From contig JAHDDR010000027.1 of NCBI GenBank assembly GCA_020629255.1, forward strand, positions 1-32,940: a stretch of DNA of 32,940 nt, in the 5' to 3' direction. This document shows, in pieces, positions 26,417-32,681 of this stretch (position 1 is the stretch's first letter; every line of letters begins with the position of its first letter). A program made the position numbers and the translations under genes. The notes below the pieces were generated by a model. It was given only the letters and a program-made list of their open reading frames with translations, was not told where the DNA came from and did not search any database. Source of the stretch: Saprospiraceae bacterium (GTDB taxonomy: Bacteria; Bacteroidota; Bacteroidia; Chitinophagales; Saprospiraceae).

Positions 26417-27274
26417 TTACTCTTCATCTTCATCTTCATCAAGAAGAAAAGTACCACAATATTTACAATATTCTGCATCATCATCATGCCCTTCTTTGCT
26501 ACATGATTTGCAAGCTTGCGTGTTACTGCTTTCATCTGATGATCGAATCAATTCTGAAGAAACGATGCCTGTTGGAACAGCGATGACAGAATAACCCATA
26601 ATCATGACAACTGCTGCCAAGAATTGTCCGAAAGGTGTGATGGGGCTGATGTCTCCATACCCGACTGTTGTCAAGGTAACAATGGCCCAATAAATACTTA
26701 CTGGAATATTAGCAAAGGCTGGGTTCGCCTCTCCTTCTACAAAATACATGATGGAGCCCAAGATGGTTACCGATAAGAGAATAAAAACCAAGAAAACAAA
26801 AATCTTCTCTTTGCTTCTTCTCAAGGATATCAAGATAATATTACTTTGCCTAAGGAATTTTGTGAGCTTGAATATCCTAAAGACCCTGAATAATCTCATA
26901 GCCCGGATAGATAGCAAATATTGTGCTTGAGAACTCACTAATAATAAACCGATATAAGATGGTAGAATGGCTAGCAAATCTATGATTCCAAAAAAACTAG
27001 TGGCATATTTCAAGGGTTTGGCCACTGAATATAACCTAAGAACGTATTCTATGGTAAAGAATATAGTGAAAATCCATTCGAGAACATGAAAAAGAGTAAT
27101 ATACTTCTGGTTTAACCAATCCACGCTCTCCAGCATCACTACAATAACACTCAAGACGATAAAGACCAGAAGGATAATGTCAAATATTTTCCCCTTGGGT
27201 GTATCTGCCTCGAAGATAATCTCATGTATTATTTCTTGTAAAGGAGAAAGTTTAGCACTTTTTGGATTAGACAT
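26417..27274 (-). CDS. Voltage-gated potassium-type channel with C-terminal zinc ribbon
   Basis: This 285-residue membrane protein has the six-helix Kv channel plan: S1 about 31-49, S2 62-82, S3 95-113, S4 120-140, S5 158-178, pore loop 193-210 and S6 213-240. S4 carries regularly spaced basic residues (SIRAMRLFRVFRIFKLTKF), as in a voltage sensor. The selectivity filter is TTVGYGD (about 202-208), so potassium selectivity is expected. The cytosolic tail holds CKSC (255-258) and CKYC (270-273) with His263 between, a likely zinc ribbon, and then a very acidic end (DEDEDEE). The zinc knuckle may assemble or gate the tetramer, which is inference. The gene is transcribed alone, divergently from the CHU_C protein. 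Confidence 0.92.
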   Translation of the reverse strand: MSNPKSAKLSPLQEIIHEIIFEADTPKGKIFDIILLVFIVLSVIVVMLESVDWLNQKYITLFHVLEWIFTIFFTIEYVLRLYSVAKPLKYATSFFGIIDLLAILPSYIGLLLVSSQAQYLLSIRAMRLFRVFRIFKLTKFLRQSNIILISLRRSKEKIFVFLVFILLSVTILGSIMYFVEGEANPAFANIPVSIYWAIVTLTTVGYGDISPITPFGQFLAAVVMIMGYSVIAVPTGIVSSELIRSSDESSNTQACKSCSKEGHDDDAEYCKYCGTFLLDEDEDEE

Positions 27275-27508: not shown

Positions 27509-29287
27509 ATGAATAAATTCTATTCGAATATTTTTTACTTTTTGGTGTCTTTTTGGGTGCTATTTCTGTGTGTTTTCTCACCCAAGCATTTATCCTCCCA
27601 AATTCCTCCCTCAGATTTCATCTGTGTGGAAAACGATACGCTCCGATGGACCGTACCTAATATTTCTTGTGGTCCATTTGTTTCCTATGACATATATTAT
27701 AGTAATAATCTAGCTGGCCCTTATACCTTATTACAAAGCGTAAATGATCCGCTACAAAATGATTTTTTCCATATGAATGCCAACAGTGCAAACAATACTT
27801 GGTATTACTATATAGAGAATAATTTTGATTGCCCAGGTTTATCGCCACTTCCCTCAGACACTTTAGACAATCGAGATCCAGACTTCCCCCCTATTGATGC
27901 CGTTACTGTTAATAATGGGTTAGTAGAAATTTTTTGGACACAAAGTGAGGCTCCGGAAACGGCGGGATATATTATTTACAAAAAAGGATCGGATGGTAAT
28001 TTTAGTCCTATAGATACCATTATGCCCGAAACAACGACCTATTATCTGGATAATTCTTCAAACCCTTCTGATGGTTCTGAAGAATACACCCTACTCGCTA
28101 TCGATGGTTGTGGAAATACCAGTATTTTCAATACAGCCCCACAGGCTTCTATTTTTTCAACAGTAGAAATTGATCCTTGTACACAATCGGCTAGCATCAA
28201 TTGGAACTTGTATAAGAACTGGACGGAAGGAATCGAAAAACATGAAATATGGGTCTCGGAATCGGGTTCACCTCTTGTTGCTGTAGATACGCTACCCGCA
28301 TCGGACACCACTTATATTTATGGGGGCTTGGATGATGCTACATCTTATTGTTTTTTGGTAAGGACGTATCGAAACAATAGCGACTTTTATTCCGAATCCA
28401 ATGAAATTTGTTTAACGACGAGCATCGTACAACCTAACCGAAATCTGACTTTGCAATCTGTTTCTTTCACACCAGATGACGACATCGAATTAATCTGGTT
28501 TTGGGATACCCAAGCAGAAATTAATACCGTAAATATCCGAAACAGCGATTCTAATTCCAACTACACTAACGTTCAGTCTATGAACCCGGATTTCCCTTTA
28601 GAAGAACGGGACACTTTTTATGTGATGAATCACCAAGGAAATAATGGTAAAGAATTTTATCAAATACAAACCATTGATGATTGTGATAGCAGTGCTATTT
28701 CTAATTATGGGGCTACCATTTTTTTGAGTGGAGAATCGCTGGAAGACCAAACCAATCAATTAGAATGGACTCCTTTTGATATTGAAAATGGAACAGTCTT
28801 AGAATATCGAATTCATAAGGTAACGGATGTGGATGAACAGGTGATTGCCCAAGTGCTTCCCGAAGAACTATCATATTGGGATCCGAATATAGAAAACATT
28901 TATGATTCGAATGCTTGTTATTTTATTACTGCTGTCGGGTATGTACTCATGGACAATGGCGTTGCTTTACAGTCTTTTTCCAGATCCAATACGATTTGTC
29001 TGGAACAATTTGCGAATATCCAATTTCCGAATGCTTTTGCTCCAAAAGGTAAAAATACCATTTTCAAACCTTTGATTGCTTTCCCGGGTTTAATTGCTCA
29101 ATATGAATTACGAATTTTCGACAGATGGGGTAAATTGGTTTTTGAAACCAACAACCCTGAAGAAGGATGGAACGGAGAATTCAAAGGCAAACCAATGCCT
29201 AACGGCATGTATATAACTACAATGAGAATGACACAAAGTGACGGAAAAGAAAAACAATACGAAGGCCCCGTCATGTTAATTCGATAA
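27509..29287 (+). CDS. Secreted protein with C-terminal CHU_C/gliding-type sorting domain
   Basis: The 592-residue product has a signal peptide ending about residue 31 (KHLSSQ). Several fibronectin type III-like beta-sandwiches follow, for example VNNGLVEIFWTQSEAPETAG around 145-165 and CTQSASINWNLYKNWTEG around 225-245. The C-terminal domain (about 500-592) begins FANIQFPNAFAPKGKNTIF. It continues YELRIFDRWGKLVFETN, EEGWNGEFKGKPMPNGMYI and GPVMLIR, which is the CHU_C/gliding motility-associated signature. In Bacteroidota this domain directs export through the type IX secretion system (type B signal) and surface attachment. The FN3 modules suggest an adhesin or matrix protein. It diverges from the channel gene and converges on the 29311 gene. 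Confidence 0.93.
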   Translation: MNKFYSNIFYFLVSFWVLFLCVFSPKHLSSQIPPSDFICVENDTLRWTVPNISCGPFVSYDIYYSNNLAGPYTLLQSVNDPLQNDFFHMNANSANNTWYYYIENNFDCPGLSPLPSDTLDNRDPDFPPIDAVTVNNGLVEIFWTQSEAPETAGYIIYKKGSDGNFSPIDTIMPETTTYYLDNSSNPSDGSEEYTLLAIDGCGNTSIFNTAPQASIFSTVEIDPCTQSASINWNLYKNWTEGIEKHEIWVSESGSPLVAVDTLPASDTTYIYGGLDDATSYCFLVRTYRNNSDFYSESNEICLTTSIVQPNRNLTLQSVSFTPDDDIELIWFWDTQAEINTVNIRNSDSNSNYTNVQSMNPDFPLEERDTFYVMNHQGNNGKEFYQIQTIDDCDSSAISNYGATIFLSGESLEDQTNQLEWTPFDIENGTVLEYRIHKVTDVDEQVIAQVLPEELSYWDPNIENIYDSNACYFITAVGYVLMDNGVALQSFSRSNTICLEQFANIQFPNAFAPKGKNTIFKPLIAFPGLIAQYELRIFDRWGKLVFETNNPEEGWNGEFKGKPMPNGMYITTMRMTQSDGKEKQYEGPVMLIR

Positions 29288-29310: not shown

Positions 29311-29517
29311 TTATGCCAAACCAAAACCACCGGTACACACACCGAAACCGACAATAAAATAGATGGCAGAAAATATCAATAATTTTTTTGCCAAACTCCG
29401 ATTGGATTTCCATTTCACCAAACCTACGATTAGTGCAATAATTGCTGGTAAATGACATACTAAATAAATAATGATGACCATAGCCAAGAGACCTTCCATG
29501 TTATCCATCCAAAGCAT
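29311..29517 (-). CDS. Small two-helix membrane protein, copy 1
   Basis: This 68-residue protein (65 if the internal ATG at 29508 is used, which aligns better with its paralogue) has two hydrophobic helices. A conserved basic turn separates them: HLPAIIALIVGLVKWKSNRS then LAKKLLIFSAIYFIVG. It is clearly paralogous to the 63-residue protein encoded at 29713-29904 in the same orientation. The two share HLPAIIALI, VKWKSNR and LAKKLL exactly. It lies downstream of the radical SAM operon and ends 23 nt from the CHU_C gene stop. Function is unknown; its size and charge suggest a membrane accessory subunit. Confidence 0.75.
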   Translation of the reverse strand: MLWMDNMEGLLAMVIIIYLVCHLPAIIALIVGLVKWKSNRSLAKKLLIFSAIYFIVGFGVCTGGFGLA

Positions 29518-29712: not shown

Positions 29713-29904
29713 TCATTTAATAAGAAACCACCCTACAATCAGCCCTATAACAAAATAAACCCCTGCAAACATCAATAATTTTTTTGCTAAATTTCGATTG
29801 CTTTTCCATTTTACCACCCCAGCAATTAATGCAATTATCGCTGGCAAGTGGCTAATAAAATAAGTAATCCCTATTGCAGCCAACATACTTTCTATAATGT
29901 TCAT
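29713..29904 (-). CDS. Small two-helix membrane protein, copy 2
   Basis: This 63-residue protein is the closer of the two paralogues to the radical SAM gene; its start codon lies 11 nt after that gene's stop, so it belongs to the operon. It starts MNIIESMLAAIGITYFISHL and has two helices separated by the same VVKWKSNRNLAKKLL turn as copy 1. The pair probably arose by tandem duplication; the 98-bp inverted-repeat element now lies between them. Both are real by conservation to each other, but no family is recognised. Confidence 0.8.
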   Translation of the reverse strand: MNIIESMLAAIGITYFISHLPAIIALIAGVVKWKSNRNLAKKLLMFAGVYFVIGLIVGWFLIK

Positions 29905-29915
29905 TTCAATTATAA

Positions 29916-31304
29916 TTATATAGTTTTCAATTTCTCTAAATATTCTTTTTTGTCATCCCGATAAAACAAGTTCATGGTCTCGAAAGGGATTATTTTATAA
30001 TCTTTATTGACAATATGGACACATGATTTTTTAATTGCCCTTACATCGAAATTATGGGCATCAATAAATTGCATGATTATAATTCTGAACAAATTATCAT
30101 ACCCTAAATTCGGCGCTTCGACAAATGGCAAACAACACAACAAGGAATGTAATTCTGTCGATGCTTTTTCTGTTGAAATTCCCGTACTAAAAATATCGAA
30201 CATTTTTTGGTGTAATGCCTCGTCCTGTTCATAGACAATCGTATTTTTACTATTGTCTAATAAATCTGCGGGATTGATGAATCTTGTTAAAGGTAAGGCT
30301 TTTCCATCTAATTTCAAAACATAGCCCATCACTAAAGCATCTGGATTACAAGGTACTGGAATTAAATCGTCTGCTTGGAAAATTTCGGTTTGTTCTAGTA
30401 TTTTACGCCTTACCTCAGTTAGTGTTATCCGATCGGTTTGTTCATTGAAATTATCCAACCGCCCTGCAATTTGTGTCGGTTGAAAAGTAACACCTCGCAC
30501 ACATTTTTGCTGCAAAGCAAAATCAATGATTTTTCCTATTTCATCATCATTCATTCCTTTTTGCAAGGTAACGACTAGCGTGGTGGAAAGATTTAATTGA
30601 TTTAAATGCTCTAATGCTTTTTCTCTGATTTTTGAAAGTTCCGCTCCCCGCATGGATTTCAAAACCTCCTCTTTAAAAGAATCGAATTGAAGGTAAATTT
30701 CAAAATCGGGTGTATAACTTTTTAATTTTTTCGCAAATTCGAAATCCTTGGCAATTTTTATTCCATTTGTATTTAGCATCAAATGTTTGATGGGTAGTGT
30801 TTTTGCATAATCCAAGATTTCAAAAAATTGTGGGTGTACGGTGGGTTCTCCTCCACTAATTTGTACGACATCAGGTTCTTTTTCATTTTCAACAATGGTG
30901 TCTAACATTTTTTTCACTTCATCTAACGTTCGGTGTCGACCATAACTGGGCGAAGAACAAGCATAACAGGTTGGGCAAGTCAGATTACAACGGTCGGTGA
31001 CTTCCACTACGGTAAGGCAAGAATGCTGTTCATGGTCGGGACACAAGCCGCAATCATAAGGGCAACCATAATGGGTTTTTGTATTGAATTTAAATGGTGT
31101 TTCTGATGGTTTATTATAATTTCTGATATTTTTATAATATTCAATATCGTCAGCAATTAAAACTTTTGACGCTCCATGCTCGGGACACCGTTTCAGCATG
31201 AACACTTTTCCATCTTCAAAAACAATTTTAGCATCAATTCTTTTCAAGCATTCTGGACAGAGGCTCAATGTAAAATCATAATATGTATATTTCCTAATCG
31301 GCAT
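29916..31304 (-). CDS. Radical SAM protein of the COG1964/tetraether-synthase (Tes/MJ0619) type
   Basis: This 462-residue protein carries an unusual set of cysteine motifs. Residues 16-43 hold CPEC and CPEH, a rubredoxin- or zinc-like knuckle. A first CxxxCxxC is CPYDCGLC (81-88), with Cys96 nearby. The canonical radical SAM CxxxCxxC is CNLTCPTC (106-113), followed by SGGEPTVHP (SAM-binding GGE). The N-terminal knuckle plus two cluster motifs is the pattern of COG1964. In archaea that family includes tetraether lipid synthase and MJ0619-like enzymes, which join or methylate unactivated carbons. This gene overlaps the Lgt-like gene by 11 nt, so the two products are likely functional partners. 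The specific reaction is inference; a lipid substrate is plausible. Confidence 0.85.
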   Translation of the reverse strand: MPIRKYTYYDFTLSLCPECLKRIDAKIVFEDGKVFMLKRCPEHGASKVLIADDIEYYKNIRNYNKPSETPFKFNTKTHYGCPYDCGLCPDHEQHSCLTVVEVTDRCNLTCPTCYACSSPSYGRHRTLDEVKKMLDTIVENEKEPDVVQISGGEPTVHPQFFEILDYAKTLPIKHLMLNTNGIKIAKDFEFAKKLKSYTPDFEIYLQFDSFKEEVLKSMRGAELSKIREKALEHLNQLNLSTTLVVTLQKGMNDDEIGKIIDFALQQKCVRGVTFQPTQIAGRLDNFNEQTDRITLTEVRRKILEQTEIFQADDLIPVPCNPDALVMGYVLKLDGKALPLTRFINPADLLDNSKNTIVYEQDEALHQKMFDIFSTGISTEKASTELHSLLCCLPFVEAPNLGYDNLFRIIIMQFIDAHNFDVRAIKKSCVHIVNKDYKIIPFETMNLFYRDDKKEYLEKLKTI

Positions 31305-32040
31305 AATTCATTTTTCTTTTCATAAAAAGGATAATATAATACATCCAACACACAAGACACAACCACTGGATGCTACTCAAATCTAAAATAAAAAATGTAT
31401 TGGGTTTTAAAAATTCTATAAAAAATCGAAATCCAAAATAGGAAAGCATAAATATTTTAAATATTGCCCCATTTTCAAAACTATTACTATTTTTCATTTT
31501 TAAAATTACAAAAAACAATAACAACAAAAAGATAAGCTCATACAATGAAGTCGGATGTCGCAGCAAACCATCTCCCAAATCCATTCCGGTAAAAAAAGTG
31601 GTTTCCTTCCCGTAAGTGAATTCTTTTATTCCGCTTAAAAAACACCCTATTCTTCCAATAAAAATTCCTACAATAATAGGTAAAGTAAATAAATCACCGG
31701 AAGATGTTTTCTCTCCTATTATTTTTTTAGATATTTCGACACCTAATAAACCACCGAACAAACCTCCCATTATGGTTTTGGAATTTAATAATTGCACCAA
31801 TGTTTCTTGACTAAAGGAGAAAAATGGCATTTCTAAAAATCCGATAATCCTAGAACCTAAAAATGCTCCGATGACGGCTCCTAAAATTATGGACAACCTA
31901 TTTTGATCAGAAATTTTATCCGATACTTTTTTTCTTAAAAATAAATAATATTGAAAACCAACAATAAAAGCAAGGTACTCTAAAACAAGGTGTACATTAA
32001 TGGCTGTTCCGAAAATTTGGGGTTCGTAGGGTATTGTCAA
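31294..32040 (-). CDS. Lgt-like integral membrane protein (prolipoprotein diacylglyceryl transferase family)
   Basis: This 248-residue, about seven-helix membrane protein belongs to the Lgt superfamily, whose founder moves diacylglycerol from phosphatidylglycerol to lipoprotein cysteines. Shared features are FIGRIGCFLSG (residues 128-137), RHPTSLYEL (161-169) and the C-terminal RFFIEF (205-210), matching the conserved Arg/Glu of Lgt. However, the catalytic HGG(x)xG region is replaced by IMGGLFGGLLGVE (90-102), with no histidine. It is therefore probably a divergent relative with a different acceptor or function rather than the cell's housekeeping Lgt. It overlaps the radical SAM gene by 11 nt and the preceding TPR/membrane gene by 4 nt, implying coordinated synthesis of all three. 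Confidence 0.85.
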   Translation of the reverse strand: MTIPYEPQIFGTAINVHLVLEYLAFIVGFQYYLFLRKKVSDKISDQNRLSIILGAVIGAFLGSRIIGFLEMPFFSFSQETLVQLLNSKTIMGGLFGGLLGVEISKKIIGEKTSSGDLFTLPIIVGIFIGRIGCFLSGIKEFTYGKETTFFTGMDLGDGLLRHPTSLYELIFLLLLFFVILKMKNSNSFENGAIFKIFMLSYFGFRFFIEFLKPNTFFILDLSSIQWLCLVCWMYYIILFMKRKMNYAD

Positions 32041-32681
32041 AATTTATGATTTAATTGCATCCAACATTTAAATCCATGTATTAATTCCATCGTTAAGACC
32101 AGTCCTAGTGCAATAAAAAATATAGCGGTCCTTAACCACTGGACCATTTCCAAATATTCTTTATAAAATGTTCCTACAATTAAAATTTCGAAAAGGGCGA
32201 CAATAGCTGCCACAAGAAAGAAAAGAATCGAAACCGCTTTGGATATTTGTATCCAACGGGGTTTATTAAAAAACAAAGAAAAAAACAAGTGATTACTATA
32301 TCGCTTATCCTTTGGGTTCATTTTCACCAACTCTTTTAAAATATAAGAGGACTCCTTATATTCCATTAATCGAATAAGAGAAGCCGCTTTCCAAAATAGA
32401 GCATCTTCATAATATTGCCTCCCTTGTTCTATCGGAATTTCTTCGGCAAGAGCAGCCGAAATCATCTCAGGACTCACATCCACTACCCTTTTCGAATCCT
32501 GTATTTCATATAAGGCCTCTAAATAAACATGCAACATATCCAAACGTTTCGGCTCGGATAAATGATAGAGATTTTCTTCGTTTCTTTCATAGAATTGGAT
32601 AATCTCCGACCACGCCCTTTTAGGAATATTCTTAAAAGCGGTATACGTCTGATATGATATGGTCGATTTAGATATCGGCAT
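32037..32681 (-). CDS. TPR-like protein with two C-terminal membrane helices
   Basis: First gene of the Lgt-like/radical SAM operon; its stop overlaps the Lgt-like start by 4 nt (ATGA). The 214-residue product has no signal peptide. About 130 residues form helical, TPR-like repeats (HVYLEALYEIQD and ALFWKAASLIRLMEYKESSY followed by ILKELVKMNP), so they are likely cytosolic. Two membrane helices follow at roughly 149-170 and 184-203. The layout suggests a membrane-tethered scaffold or adaptor for the downstream enzymes. No family is recognised. Confidence 0.78.
   Translation of the reverse strand: MPISKSTISYQTYTAFKNIPKRAWSEIIQFYERNEENLYHLSEPKRLDMLHVYLEALYEIQDSKRVVDVSPEMISAALAEEIPIEQGRQYYEDALFWKAASLIRLMEYKESSYILKELVKMNPKDKRYSNHLFFSLFFNKPRWIQISKAVSILFFLVAAIVALFEILIVGTFYKEYLEMVQWLRTAIFFIALGLVLTMELIHGFKCWMQLNHKF

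Follow-up and report, generated by a model that had tools for sequence, protein, structure and literature searches.

A conserved association of three parts is encoded near the end of contig JAHDDR010000027.1 of a Saprospiraceae bacterium (phylum Bacteroidota), a stretch of 32,940 nucleotides (nt) which was analysed as a whole and is called the window here. The parts are a COG1964-type radical S-adenosylmethionine (SAM) protein, named rSAM below, an Lgt-family paralogue, for which we use our own label LgtX (a specialised clade of Lgt-like proteins), as well as between one and three mini-membrane proteins bearing a near-C-terminal Cys. The association itself is well supported by gene linkage and by co-occurrence across genomes. 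That two such enzymes travel together with small Cys proteins suggests an undescribed attachment or alteration of a lipid on a membrane protein. Our tentative reading, to which we give somewhat less than an even chance, is a conserved three-part system in which LgtX would lipidate the Cys of the mini-protein and rSAM would modify the lipid or the adduct.

The linkage was followed in 80 named Bacteroidota loci, all with at least 73% identity, which are the best 80 of 578 relatives seen when a sequence collection was scanned with ten rSAM orthologues. In 76 of these loci rSAM is preceded on the same strand by an Lgt-like gene, which in 66 of them overlaps it or is at most 100 nt away; the count rose from 74 to 76 once open reading frames (ORFs) masked by longer overlapping ones were admitted. 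Two of the four loci without an upstream LgtX have at most 309 bases of upstream sequence. Clustering of all neighbours showed that only the Lgt-like gene and small membrane proteins consistently adjoin rSAM: a protein of about 66 amino acids (aa) follows it directly in 55 loci, and families of 90 and 96 aa occur in seven loci each. The original prediction had described three genes overlapping end to end, and these minus-strand ORFs are present, with overlaps of 4 nt between the 214-aa ORF and the Lgt-like ORF and of 11 nt between the latter and rSAM. The 214-aa protein had been taken for a tetratricopeptide repeat (TPR) protein acting as scaffold. The TPR assignment was not borne out: no TPR family and no NCBIfam family was matched, and no Pfam family scored above cut-off (DUF202 sub-threshold only). 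The scaffold role was rejected, as a homologue was found in none of the 80 named loci. The segment considered at that time also left out the two mini-membrane protein genes directly downstream, the first of which begins 11 nt past the rSAM stop.

Co-occurrence was determined by a phyletic profile over 296 evenly drawn Bacteroidota genomes, the window's genome among them, with the best five or fewer rSAM candidates and the best nine or fewer Lgt-like candidates scored per genome. The rSAM profile gave 26 matches at E ≤ 1e-20, 24 of these with at least 396 bits. The Lgt-like profile showed a score gap from 166 to 72 bits, and 25 genomes lie above it. With the lines placed at 396 and 166 bits, after the gaps had been seen, LgtX is present in all 24 rSAM-clade genomes and in 1 of the 272 others; G192 (rSAM 206 bits, adjoining Lgt homologue 72 bits) and the Tes-like case G162 (206 bits) were counted as negative. 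In G131 and G367 both genes co-occur though they are located on separate contigs. At least two PF01790 copies were counted in 25 of 26 rSAM-positive genomes versus 41 of 270 others (Fisher 1.7e-17; counts read by eye). All 24 rSAM-clade genomes have at least two such genes, and LgtX is therefore additional to another Lgt. For the window's genome, a second PF01790 gene on the separate contig C146 rules out that LgtX is the sole Lgt. Linkage and phyletic profile taken together also rule out a chance neighbourhood of LgtX and rSAM. Thus, the earlier inference that both proteins work together has passed the test by conserved linkage that had been proposed to refute it.

The third part of the system is a group of small ORFs which diverge in sequence and have similar endings, namely a positive loop, a helix, mostly the pattern [LI]-[IV]-[GS]-x-[GS]-x-C and a few further residues (3-14 after the Cys). 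A small membrane protein with [GS]xC was found in 74 of the 80 named loci, another C-terminal Cys pattern in two and none in four, two of which have at most 84 bases of downstream sequence. Near the LgtX/rSAM pair, 124 of 144 small ORFs with at least two hydrophobic segments carry [GS]xC (122 of 140 after removal of duplicates). In a control set of 48 ORFs from other places in these loci, which may include non-genes, 2 carry it. The hydrophobic segments were assigned by a simple hydropathy script and not by a trained predictor. When 91 short ORFs from downstream of rSAM were aligned, the Cys column had the highest conservation (88/91); these ORFs were not selected for a C-terminal Cys, unlike the rows of alignment A4, whose invariant Cys is therefore not independent evidence. 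Differences at the three codon positions amount to 161/74/374 in 15 hand-picked pairs of close relatives, some loci being used twice and the comparison running ungapped from the Cys, and this pattern is the one expected of protein-coding genes. The loop before the last helix has a net charge of +3.6 in 63 two-segment ORFs and of +2.4 in 33 three-segment ORFs, and the tails are close to 0; from this the C-terminus is predicted to be periplasmic.

The eight commonest residues at position -1 to the Cys in the 124 motif-bearing mini-proteins are I (52), V (27), T (12), S (8), L (7), A (6), M (5) and F (4). The classical lipobox signature has [GAS] at this position. Six mini-protein examples matched no Pfam or NCBIfam family above cut-off. 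A profile of the type with two transmembrane helices (2-TM) gave matches with E ≤ 1e-4 in 13 of the 296 genomes, all of them rSAM-positive; the remaining rSAM-positive genomes have other mini-protein types or none that was found. The matches adjoin rSAM with the exception of three tandem copies in G307, which lie on a separate short contig in a genome whose rSAM contig breaks off. Two or three tandem copies are present at several other loci. A genome-wide C-terminal sorting signal was considered and rejected, since the 2-TM profile found no copies outside the system in rSAM-positive genomes; this search covered the best 20 or fewer candidates per genome, and the three-helix type as well as proteins sharing the motif only would escape it. 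Four weaker matches (E 1.2e-4 to 7.2e-4; ORFs of 326-548 aa), all in rSAM-negative genomes, look like chance. In a wider set of 114 loci, which includes the duplicates L013=L023, L136=L068 and L139=L099 and hence comprises 111 unique loci, 95 have [GS]xC and 101 a Cys within the last 16 residues. Among the ten others, two (L027 and L068) are truncated, L132 is a Tes locus without LgtX, L131 and L165 have such proteins that were missed by the ORF caller, and none was found in the remaining five (L018, L088, L095, L137 and L164). The window itself has two copies. Copy 2 ends with ...IVGFGVCTGGFGLA, where residue 61 is the family Cys.

LgtX belongs to the Lgt superfamily (PF01790, 94.8 bits against a cut-off of 24.9). 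However, it reaches only 53.4 bits with the lgt equivalog TIGR00544, whose cut-off is 118.9. For its structure model (predicted local distance difference test, pLDDT, 85) the sole PDB match at E ≤ 0.001 is E. coli Lgt 5azb (E 1.4e-6, probability 1.00, template modelling score 0.62; Lgt is also represented by 5AZC). In agreement with the original prediction, the window protein retains the RHPTxLYE motif (as RHPTSLYE) and has lost the catalytic His, Met being found at H103. The Arg/Glu motif claimed for it stood in part: the equivalents of R143, R239, E202 and E243 are kept, whereas Phe occupies the E151 position. In all 99 unique LgtX proteins R143, G154, E202, Y235 and R239 are invariant and N146 is replaced by Cys; Y26 is replaced by His in 96, and position H103 is never His. 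Of the residues essential in E. coli Lgt (Y26, H103, R143, N146, G154 and R239; PMC13251419), LgtX thus keeps R143, G154 and R239. The loss of H103 alone is not diagnostic of inactivity, because Firmicutes have Y and Actinobacteria have W at this position (PMC13251419). The same paper reports the exchanges Y26H and N146C for MSMEG_5408, the second Lgt of M. smegmatis, and presumes its Lgt activity to be low; this is the typical LgtX combination, and we regard the likeness, drawn from the published description, as a lead only.

In the LgtX tree the same three groups appear as in the rSAM tree (Actinomycetota with L131, L129 with L130, and the main Bacteroidota clade), and of 15 ordinary Lgts 14 are separated from LgtX by a 100/100 branch. 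The divergent Lgt of the window's own genome forms a long branch and is placed on the side of LgtX. This other PF01790 protein (L022, G000:C146) has Asn at Y26, Tyr at H103 and Cys at N146. A further observation concerns L172 in G092, an LgtX-type gene with Gln at the Y26 position, no rSAM match in the genome and no nearby mini-protein, which may be a relic.

The rSAM protein matches PF04055 (1.8e-26) and the N-terminal zinc ribbon PF23545 (5.1e-21), and among solved structures only that of Tes is closely related (PDB 7TOL, 4.5e-75), a protein also known as GDGT-MAS or MJ0619. The original prediction had listed MJ0619 and the archaeal tetraether synthase as two members of the family; they are one identical protein (PMC9433317). 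Best among the NCBIfam profiles is TrsS (NF045646), matched over nearly full length with 339.9 bits but below the curated cut-off of 490; the Tes profile NF045702 gave 300.7 bits against a cut-off of 450. For TrsS we found no function in print, the only mention found being an entry in a table. The N-terminal CxxC/CxxH knuckle and the two CxxxCxxC motifs noted earlier are confirmed, as C16xxC19-x20-C40xxH43, C81xxxC85xxC88 and C106xxxC110xxC113 are each present in 80 of 80 named loci. Together with H91 they correspond to the ligands of three metal sites of Tes, in the same domain order: the Fe site C-x2-C-x20-C-x2-H (C16, C19, C40, H43), the N-terminal cluster C-x3-C-x2-C with its His (C81, C85, C88, H91) and the radical SAM cluster (C106, C110, C113), each in 80/80. 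Differences to Tes are C319 in place of a Ser, the extra residues C96, C390 and C391, and Glu in place of Cys470; no part in a C-terminal cluster such as that of Tes is claimed for C319, C390, C391 and C428. Met411 aligns with Tes Met439 in 80/80, with T or K there in other LgtX-linked branches. In place of Tes Tyr459, 79 of the 80 proteins have Ile and one has a gap; Met439 and Tyr459 are described as fully conserved across 1000 archaeal homologues in the literature.

In the rSAM tree a branch with support 95/84 separates all 29 LgtX-linked rSAMs used from Tes and from the rSAMs linked to methyltransferases. The root of this tree is undetermined and the tree program warns of long branches, and with these reservations a single origin of the LgtX-linked rSAMs is likely. 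An identification of rSAM as Tes was rejected on account of the score below the Tes cut-off and the supported branch apart from Tes. Of the Tes-like chemistry proposed earlier, the metal-site ligands remain in its favour, whereas the profile score, the exchange of Tyr459 and the tree position speak against it. Neither profiles nor tree place the protein in a family with a known non-lipid substrate. The structure model of rSAM (pLDDT 58.3) was too poor and was not used. The rSAM of G001, a genome of the same genus, agrees in all of its last 300 residues with that of JAHDFN010000300.1, which belongs to a Saprospiraceae metagenome-assembled genome (L013 and L023), and this makes Saprospiraceae the probable family of the window.

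Other phyla were sampled through a plasmid collection only. Matches to rSAM were obtained in 10 of its records and matches to the Lgt-like protein in 5, and the bacteroidete Persicobacter accounts for one record in either set. The pair of LgtX and rSAM is present on three actinobacterial records. On the plasmids of M. branderi and M. avium the order is LgtX, two small proteins and rSAM, and the small proteins of the Mycobacterium plasmids carry GGLCTGLNP, VGVCTGLNP, AGICTGLNP and AGYCTGLNP a few residues from their ends. In Nonomuraea LgtX overlaps rSAM, and a terminal-Cys protein was not found there. The locus L131, which comes from a remote member of the window's phylum, comprises LgtX, an ORF of 140 aa ending with ...GGMCIFLPQPL and rSAM, and the small proteins of L129 and L130 end with ...FGAC and ...FGSC. 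The cysteines of the N-terminal cluster are gone in the actinobacterial-type rSAM and in that of L131. Plasmids from M. vanbaalenii and from four haloarchaea (L166, L167, L169, L170, L171) carry a TrsS-like rSAM followed by a methyltransferase gene; these rSAMs are a branch of their own with a different partner. A separate observation was made in G162, again from the window's phylum: the protein encoded at L132:8364-9818 passes the NCBIfam Tes cut-off with 493.8 versus 450 bits, no gene resembling Lgt was noticed up to 3.5 kb away, and it is a candidate bacterial tetraether synthase.

How the parts might act together can be outlined from these sequence features. The last helix of the mini-protein, following a positive cytoplasmic loop, would bring the Cys to the periplasmic face and would be a C-terminal analogue of a type-II signal peptide. 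LgtX would move a glycerolipid, or an acyl group, onto this Cys; for E. coli Lgt, the periplasmic face is the presumed side to which the active site opens (PMC4728403). The cytoplasmic rSAM would activate a C-H bond, acting either on the lipid ahead of its transfer or on the adduct, and the resulting lipid would be one unused by the housekeeping Lgt. The product would be a small proteolipid carrying its lipid at the C-terminal end and uncut by signal peptidase II, which should not cleave as residue -1 is mostly I, V or T and not G, A or S. We prefer lipidation because the most constant residue of the mini-protein is a Cys in a setting like that of signal peptide II, and because LgtX is an Lgt that keeps the phospholipid-binding arginines. 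The identity of relatives to the window's proteins is 58-90% for rSAM, 38-70% for LgtX and 19-53% for the mini-proteins; a constant lipid on variable carriers would fit the far stronger conservation of rSAM than of the mini-proteins. Compared with lipoproteins that have a type-II signal peptide, the positive segment, the hydrophobic helix, the small residue two before the Cys and the predicted periplasmic end are shared, whereas the Cys is located at the C-terminal side of a two- to three-helix protein, with a different -1 residue and a tail beyond it. Whether this amounts to a new class of lipidation, with a non-cleaved C-terminal lipobox-like Cys, a loader LgtX with Cys and His in its site and C-H activation by a Tes-related rSAM making or finishing the lipid, is more doubtful; we consider it possible, on balance unlikely.

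Several observations weigh against lipidation of the mini-proteins. LgtX is without His103 and Asn146 and usually without Tyr26, all described as essential in E. coli Lgt, so that its activity could be lost or changed. The preference at position -1 departs from the lipobox, and the cytoplasmic rSAM and the periplasmic Cys are predicted on opposite faces of the membrane. Only copy 2 of the window's two mini-proteins retains the Cys. At single loci parts of the system are missing: no LgtX was seen on the rSAM strand within 21 kb in L095 or within the 3.5 kb available upstream in L037, no mini-protein was found beside rSAM in L018, L088, L095 and L137 and no terminal-Cys one in L164, and G092 has LgtX without an rSAM match. 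Finally, the five TrsS-like plasmid loci have no Lgt annotated in the stretch inspected and gave no Lgt-like match.

Closest to the original prediction is a free membrane lipid as the product, with rSAM coupling or alkylating acyl chains in the manner of Tes; LgtX would then do no more than bind and present the phospholipid, and the mini-proteins would be anchors or lipid chaperones. The mini-proteins shift the likeliest reading from the free lipid to a lipidated mini-protein, and we regard the former as improbable. It would agree with Tes being the only solved close relative, with the ligands of the Tes Fe site, N-terminal cluster and radical SAM cluster kept in all 80 rSAMs and with the stronger conservation of rSAM over LgtX and the mini-proteins, as expected for an invariant lipid or small-molecule substrate. 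However, it leaves the near-invariant Cys without a role, and the score below the Tes cut-off, the separate position in the tree, the exchanges Tyr459 to Ile and Cys470 to Glu and the lack of a Met439 equivalent in other LgtX-linked branches do not fit. Moreover, archaeal Tes alone yields glycerol dialkyl glycerol tetraether (GDGT) in a methanogen (PMC8941075) and needs no such partner there, whereas LgtX and mini-proteins accompany the window-type rSAM in most loci.

The mini-protein itself could also be the substrate of rSAM, for example by formation of a thioether at the C-terminal Cys as in a ribosomally synthesised and post-translationally modified peptide (RiPP), with LgtX acting later or only binding. 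The small, variable and often tandem genes adjoining rSAM do look like RiPP precursors, and the constancy of the Cys would be explained; yet hydrophobic proteins of two to three helices are atypical as such precursors, the best family matches of rSAM are TrsS and Tes and no peptide maturase, and rSAM is far more conserved than its supposed substrates, so that we judge this explanation unlikely as well. Least probable in our view is a non-lipid redox, metal or small-molecule pathway, such as may apply to the TrsS-like branch, with LgtX having been put to new use as a membrane scaffold that bears a Cys/His site. The replacements of Asn146 by Cys and Tyr26 by His in LgtX could be understood in this way, TrsS rather than Tes is the top NCBIfam profile, and the TrsS-like plasmid relatives adjoin methyltransferases, several of them near redoxin or thioredoxin genes. 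Conversely, five Lgt residues (R143, G154, E202, Y235 and R239) are kept in 99/99 LgtX proteins, and no neighbours other than the Lgt-like gene and small membrane proteins are consistent across the 80 loci.

Bacterial Tes homologues without a known role have been reported (PMC9433317, PMC8941075), and so have second copies of Lgt that are divergent or presumed to be weak (PMC13251419). A description of a system of LgtX, rSAM and mini-proteins was not found in the open-access literature of PubMed Central, seen mostly as listings and for PMC8939145 in part. Our results join the two questions, as a dedicated Lgt paralogue and a candidate acceptor bearing a near-invariant Cys accompany one branch of the COG1964-type rSAMs. 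If the proposed function is correct, radical chemistry would be used in a lipoprotein-like modification at the C-terminus of tiny membrane proteins. The parts of the system occur in Bacteroidota and Actinomycetota, and the genera carrying the locus include Maribacter, Tenacibaculum, Flavobacterium, Mucilaginibacter, Winogradskyella and Lacinutrix.

Table 1. Genes of the window at and next to the LgtX/rSAM locus.
Feature	Position	Strand	Remarks
COG1964-type radical SAM protein (rSAM), 462 aa	29916-31304	minus	PF04055, PF23545; resembles Tes 7TOL
Lgt-family paralogue (LgtX), 248 aa, TTG start	31294-32040	minus	PF01790; Lgt-like predicted fold
Mini-membrane protein copy 1 (63 aa), with two hydrophobic segments and lacking Cys	29713-29904	minus	44.8 bits with family profile
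Mini-membrane protein copy 2 (68 aa), likewise with two hydrophobic segments	29311-29517	minus	81.7 bits with family profile
Membrane protein earlier called TPR, 214 aa	32037-32681	minus	overlapping neighbour, outside the conserved system

Two further genes were noted in the window. The gene at 27509-29287, which is convergent with the mini-protein genes, encodes a protein containing a CHU_C domain (type IX secretion). At 26417-27274 lies a gene for an ion channel of the voltage-gated type (PF00520, PF07885) with a C-terminal zinc-ribbon-like tail, for which the zinc-ribbon matches in Pfam remain below cut-off.

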